From the IMG/VR virus record IMGVR_UViG_3300026512_000060, positions 1 to 23,463 of that record: 23,463 bases of DNA; one strand, given 5' to 3'. The DNA comes from a virus. The position numbers were made by a program, and so were the translations under genes. The number at the start of each line of letters is the position of its first letter. The first letter of the stretch is position 1. The notes under the pieces are model-generated. The model did not search any database and was not told where the DNA came from. It saw only the letters and a list, made by a program, of their open reading frames with translations. This document shows positions 21,233 to 21,384 of this stretch, piece by piece.

Positions 21233-21384
21233 TGCGGCTTGGTAGGACTTGGCAAAGCAAGCAAGCCGCCAACTTGCTTTGCCTTGAGGCTTGATGGCAA
21301 GTTTGAACACTGCCTATATAGCAATGCTCAAAGCTACCATCAGGAGTGGTAGCTTGACGATGGTTATAACTCCAAACCATCGTC
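21233..21384 (-). ncRNA. Candidate structured RNA, chain of hairpins with possible pseudoknot
   Basis: Read on the minus strand, stems follow one another almost without gaps: a 10-bp stem at 21356-21384, a 9-bp stem at 21331-21355, a short 4-bp stem 21327-21330 with 21285-21288 that encloses a 6-bp hairpin 21308-21326, and an 11-bp stem 21273-21283 with 21251-21261. The loop of the last stem (GCGGCTTG, 21262-21269) can pair over 8 bases with 21233-21240, forming an H-type pseudoknot. A G-U pair in the 21308-21326 hairpin exists only on the minus strand. The first stem covers the stop codon of the 90-aa gene, so this is its 3' region or a processed RNA. No known RNA family is recognised. Confidence 0.45.

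Follow-up and report, generated by a model that had tools for sequence, protein, structure and literature searches.

A structured RNA element was identified at the end of a small gene, p90, on the minus strand of the window, the 23,463-bp IMG/VR virus record analysed here. Three hairpins and an H-type pseudoknot overlap and follow the p90 stop codon, and a distant relative retains this architecture, the pseudoknot and an alternative fold despite an almost complete change of letters. Since the relative keeps the fold while its letters differ almost entirely, selection probably acts on the shape as such, and protection or control of the end of the p90 message is the most likely role of the element. 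We tentatively propose that the p90 mRNA ends in this element, a structured 3' terminus that would block 3'-5' decay and might be gated by translation. Structured RNAs at phage mRNA 3' ends are little described, and in the present case all the needed parts lie within about 150 nt, so that the proposal can be tested with a small reporter.

Genomic context of the p90 locus

The large terminase subunit (TerL), the portal and the major head protein were recognised on the minus strand of the window, in a late-gene order that resembles a podovirus-like late cassette; the TerL of the nearest named phages shares about 40% with that of the window. The element lies directly 3' of p90, with some 530 non-coding bases between it and the gene at 20240-20701, which occupies the position expected of the small terminase subunit (putative terS). 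Close relatives were reached by alignment of the capsid protein, and in two of these (L088 and G003) p90 again precedes that small gene; their TerL proteins are 70% and 75% identical to that of the window and their p90 proteins 36% and about 54% (53-54%), respectively. Scans of other IMG/VR contigs based on TerS and p90 found the region only in these two, a TerL-based IMG/VR search gave relatives of at most about 50% identity among the matches listed, and capsid relatives among genomes were at most 58% identical. In all three genomes the site of the element and terS are separated by a long non-coding stretch containing short repeats. In the window, an inverted pair of ACCCTACC(C)TATATTT, at 20924-20940 and 21207-21222, flanks the AT-rich gap that follows the element, where long-range pairing would be possible. 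The window also has a 289-aa minus-strand gene (19374-20243), located between TerL and the putative terS, with a Pfam match to DruA (PF14236, E 6e-10), for which no homologue was found in the loci of the relatives.

The p90 protein is small, basic and lysine-rich. Its model, obtained from three sequences with moderate confidence (pLDDT 77), consists of helices and a beta-hairpin, and winged-helix DNA-binding domains make up most of its top structural matches, of which none is significant (best E 0.08). Homologues were found in L088 and G003 only; nucleotide and protein searches of named phages and plasmids were negative, as was a search of genome contigs from bacteria and archaea with the p90 alignment. 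In the window the p90 leader is without a consensus promoter, its motif with GAGUGCAAAGCCACUC is found again upstream of the plus-strand gene near 23330, and the minimum-energy fold of the leader does not use the GAGUGCAAAGCCACUC hairpin. An 18-bp perfect inverted repeat, TTTGCACTCTATAAAATA, was also observed at 21673-21690 and 23319-23336. The two genes whose leaders hold it point in opposite directions, and a related second box stands upstream in both cases.

At five consensus promoters with a TG before the -10 box, distributed over the three genomes, a hairpin begins no more than one base from the predicted +1 (Table 1), against a background rate of about 2%, and each of these hairpins precedes an A-rich stretch. 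Stem-loops at the 5' end stabilise mRNA (PMC7509114), and the two-ended design, a hairpin at +1 plus the element at the other end, suggests that armouring of short early messages is a strategy of the phage. Two further sets of repeats were observed. A dispersed palindrome, GTGAAATYRATTTCAC, has seven copies in the window (up to three mismatches) against 0.6 expected, five in L088, eleven in G003 (mostly weaker), one each in L089 and L093 and none in three more distant relatives; the set looks like repressor operators, comparable to the stoperators of mycobacteriophages. Four CCCGCCGATTTTATTG-type repeats (22439, 22538, 22645 and 22672) lie in the non-coding region before a plus-strand gene.

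The fold and its counterpart in a distant relative

In the minus-strand RNA the hairpins H1, H2 and H3 and a linker are followed by a pseudoknot of the H type, in which the loop of one stem (S1) pairs with the single strand downstream (S2) across workable loops of 3, 0 and 9 nt (L1, L2 and L3; Table 1). An earlier, sequence-only reading had claimed stems of 10, 9 and 11 bp, and all of them exist on the minus strand (H1, H2 and S1). Its third stem, given as 6 bp, is present with an actual length of 10 bp, two pairs being G-U; for the pseudoknot, the 8-bp pairing and the 3-nt loop stood, and the second loop has 9 nt instead of 10.

Table 1. Positions of the element, its L088 counterpart and associated features.
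Feature	Genome	Position	Strand	Description
Whole element	window	21384-21234	minus	H1, H2, H3, linker, then H-type pseudoknot
H1	window	21356..21384	minus	10 bp, 9-nt loop; 5' arm is the last p90 codons; stop codon inside hairpin
H2	window	21331..21355	minus	9 bp, 7-nt loop
H3	window	21304..21330	minus	10 bp including two G-U pairs; sense-strand specific
Linker	window	21284..21303	minus	contains UUGCCAUC (21300-21293), alternative partner of H2 3' arm
Pseudoknot stem 1 (S1)	window	21251..21283	minus	11 bp, 11-nt loop
Pseudoknot stem 2 (S2), 5' strand	window	21262..21269	minus	GCGGCUUG; 8 bp
Pseudoknot stem 2 (S2), 3' strand	window	21234..21241	minus	CAAGCCGC; 8 bp
C-rich, G-poor tract after pseudoknot	window	21154..21233	minus	20 C, 3 G in 80 nt
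p90 gene	window	21364..21636	minus	90 aa; winged-helix-like by AlphaFold2 (pLDDT 77)
Short leader hairpin	window	21666..21681	minus	GAGUGCAAAGCCACUC; p90 leader; sequence inspection
Intrinsic terminator	window	21724..21762	minus	between upstream 94-aa gene and p90
p94 promoter and hairpin	window	22288-22261; 22235..22254	minus	hairpin starts exactly at predicted +1
Promoter and hairpin at +1	window	22799-22861	plus	
Promoter and hairpin at +1	L088	1601-1655	plus	
Promoter and hairpin at +1	L088	1287-1231	minus	
Promoter and hairpin at +1	G003	6640-6592	minus	short hairpin, under scan threshold
H1	L088	1922-1950		ACCACUCAAA/UUUGAGUGGU; spans stop codon, as in window; 8/10 pairs changed on both sides
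H2	L088	about 1957-1978		GGCAAGCC/GGCUUGCC; counterpart of window H2
H3	L088			AAAGCCUG/CAGGUUUU; counterpart of window H3; also has a G-U pair
Pseudoknot stem 1	L088			CAAGAC/GUCUUG, with CACG/CGUG extension across one bulged U; 3-nt first loop
Pseudoknot stem 2	L088			GACGGCU/AGCCGUC; same topology as window
Copies of GTGAAATYRATTTCAC	window	1811, 4017, 8843, 12028, 20228, 22694		

The compact fold that had been described held when it was computed. The minimum free energy, under a model without a pseudoknot energy term, has a z score of -6.6 on the minus strand and -4.1 on the plus strand, neither of which was reached in 200 shuffles; an H-type pseudoknot with at least 19 pairs appeared in none of 1500 shuffles, and the looser pseudoknot of the architecture test in none of 3000. 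The structure is well supported, and the G-U pairs of H3, which can form in minus-strand RNA only, favour the minus strand, as had been argued before. The earlier reading missed that the element is part of a hairpin-rich block of ~1 kb (21220-22260), with seven perfect hairpins against 0.15 expected and a mean fold z of -3.6 against -0.46 in the late genes. Perfect hairpins were also seen inside early coding sequences (21516-21537, 21971-21998 and 22007-22036 in the window; 759-1193 and 1682-1951 in L088), where they exceed synonymous-codon shuffles (in L088, for example, 4 against 0.1 and 3 against 0.75); the coding hairpins of L088 overall number 14 against 4.6 expected.

In L088, the hairpins, linker and pseudoknot stand in the same order directly after p90 (fold z -5.8). 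H1 of the window spans the p90 stop codon. The connection to the 90-aa gene that had been suggested was upheld. Alignment of the state-A pairs (H1, H2, H3, inner S1 and S2) gave 39 pairs, all of which pair in both genomes and 25 of which differ on both sides, four of these being less secure as the register of S2 is ambiguous by one base. A MAFFT alignment of the two genomes leaves the arms out of register, and the pairs were therefore counted from an alignment by hand. Covariation in homologous phages had been set beforehand as a refutation test, and covarying pairs were found in L088. A pseudoknot with upstream hairpins occurs at just two sites among 7,746 sequence windows in 12 loci, namely the element and its syntenic L088 counterpart, and the architecture was seen in none of 3000 shuffles of either sequence. 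The G-U pairs in H3 and in its extended form (see below) fit the sense strand only, in both genomes. A covariance model with the window as its only source placed its two best L088 matches at the site of the element, on both strands (E 0.046 sense and 0.02 antisense, filters off), which is weak support for the counterpart and leaves the strand unsettled. The element is carried by two genomes, the window and L088; G003 is without it.

A proposed 3' end of the p90 message

Downstream of p90, G003 has an intrinsic terminator (AGCCAACC-GCUAAA-GGUUGGCU-UUUUUU), whose syntenic place marks the site as the 3' end of the p90 transcript. Most simply, the element would take the place of this terminator in the window and L088. 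A terminator scan for a G+C-rich stem with an immediate U-run found none at the window element, and intrinsic termination there was rejected, since it has no U-tract of its own. L088 has a weak hairpin and U7 about 35 nt after the pseudoknot, for which the window has no equivalent. Rho sites tend to be C-rich and G-poor. The tract after the pseudoknot in the window stands at the 99.8th percentile of the minus strand for its excess of C over G, and L088 is ordinary in this respect (91st percentile); the window tract appears Rho-site-like, the use of Rho being a guess. Antitermination of the late genes was judged less likely because a TTGACA-18-TATACT promoter (20804-20775) directly precedes terS.

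Three functions had been offered by the sequence-only reading (a processed phage sRNA, an exonuclease-resistant 3' end and a regulator of the 90-aa gene), all of them a matter of inference; the exonuclease-resistant 3' end fits best, given the G003 terminator and the C-over-G tract. Hairpins at the 3' end block PNPase-type exonucleases (PMC7509114). In the minus-strand transcript that we infer, the three hairpins and the pseudoknot would form a barrier to 3'-5' exonucleases, and an RNA ending further downstream, through Rho in the window or the weak hairpin and U7 in L088, would be trimmed back to the pseudoknot.

The 3' arm of H2, GAUGGUAG (21341-21334), can also pair with the linker segment UUGCCAUC, which extends H3 (state B). 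The linker after H3 resembles the 5' arm of H2 in both genomes, which gives the H2 3' arm two alternative partners. The two states have energies of -56.7 and -59.0 in the window and of -49.0 and -48.8 in L088, a gap of at most 2.3 kcal/mol. The stop codon is so near that the footprint of a terminating ribosome would extend over about half of the H2 5' arm in the window and over most of this arm in L088. When 12 nt after the stop were masked, extended H3 rose from 0.08 to 0.97 in the window and from 0.65 to 0.94 in L088, and stem 1 from 0.08 to 0.89 and from 0.25 to 0.65, respectively, the baseline levels varying with the exact 3' end of the folded construct. Helix-preserving randomisation reached the observed level of extended H3 in 0.5% of the controls for each genome, and the rise of stem 1 in 0.5% for the window and 14% for L088. 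Extended H3 is a supported feature shared by both genomes; gating of the pseudoknot by masking is a weaker prediction. The RNA would accordingly be pictured as bistable: with no ribosome at the stop, H2 would form and the linker could compete with stem 1, and once the H2 5' arm lies under a terminating ribosome, H3 would capture the linker, reaching about 20 bp, and the pseudoknot would be favoured. A translation-gated switch of this kind, by which the fate of the mRNA end, be it decay, processing or termination, would report translation, is predicted from folding, and we regard it as rather doubtful; if true, it would couple what becomes of the p90 mRNA end directly to the termination of p90 translation.

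It is unlikely that a ~150-nt sRNA is released from the 3' end of the p90 mRNA, for example by trimming or by RNase III acting on extended H3, to act in trans. The element is compact, strongly folded and followed by a C-rich unpaired tail, extended H3 is, at roughly 20 bp, long enough as an RNase III substrate, and IpeX, a 167-nt RNA processed from a phage porin transcript, offers a precedent (PMC12197685). However, no conserved single-stranded seed is evident except CCC(U)ACCUAU after the pseudoknot, the primary sequence is hardly conserved between the window and L088, as would seldom be seen in an sRNA that base-pairs with a host target, and G003 lacks the element. Less probable still is a cis regulator, in which the 3' structure would be read by p90 itself or by a ribosome on the stop codon, with feedback on p90 expression. 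Its parallel, in principle, would be the pseudoknot of T4 gene 32, which lies in the leader. Such a role would suit an element that accompanies p90 in two of three genomes, overlaps its stop codon and is predicted to refold with translation, as well as a lysine-rich protein, but G003 has p90 without the element, and the winged-helix match of p90 falls short of significance.

We consider it very unlikely that the element has no specific role and arose as a by-product because inverted repeats are generally overabundant among the early genes of this group of phages. The richness of the block and of nearby coding sequences in perfect hairpins speaks for this origin, yet two strongly diverged genomes have the same ordered architecture and alternative pairing at the same site, and simple inverted repeats do not give a pseudoknot. 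A DNA-level element for packaging, replication or recombination, with hairpins as ssDNA or cruciforms upstream of the terminase genes, is highly improbable: the long repeat-bearing gap before terS and the good fold of the plus strand would agree with it, but the sense-strand G-U pairs in H3 of both genomes, the weaker fold of the other strand, the position tied to the stop codon and the terminator in its place in G003 would not.

Comparison with known RNA elements

Rfam 15 gave no covariance-model match at gathering score in the window, a permissive Rfam search of 20690-22400 gave none at the element, likewise for L088, and no matching described element was found in the literature, so that the absence of a recognised family, noted earlier from the letters, stands. 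The protective 3' end that we favour would work like terminator or REP-type 3' hairpins, with which it shares a stable structure at a transcript 3' end, the G003 terminator being at the same spot. The element differs from them in having three hairpins and an H-type pseudoknot, in overlapping the stop codon and in its conserved alternative pairing, and it does not belong to the intrinsic terminators because the U-run is absent. A type III toxin-antitoxin RNA of the ToxI type, with tandem pseudoknot repeats upstream of a toxin, was rejected, as there is one pseudoknot, no tandem repeat and a position downstream of the gene. Viral xrRNAs resist 5'-3' exonucleases by a ring fold at the 5' end; the element has a pseudoknot and no match to an Rfam family.

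The phi29 pRNA is a phage structured RNA near terminase genes, a setting shared by the element, but no packaging RNA in Rfam matches the element and the TerL of the window is of another type. In attenuators of the trp and tna type, a ribosome decides between two RNA folds. The predicted footprint would similarly choose between H2 and extended H3, with the difference that termination at the end of a complete gene would place the ribosome there. IpeX originates from the 3' region of a phage mRNA. Both RNAs are about 150-170 nt long, derived from phage mRNA and strongly folded, but they have no known sequence relation, and IpeX is a processed sRNA (PMC12197685), whereas processing and a trans target would be hypothetical for the element. 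The autoregulatory pseudoknot of T4/T2 gene 32 is also of the H type, in a phage mRNA and with a likely coaxial stack; it lies in the 5' leader and represses translation, whereas the element follows the stop codon (PMC3014915). If a translation-gated switch at the 3' end were true, it would represent a new class of phage RNA.
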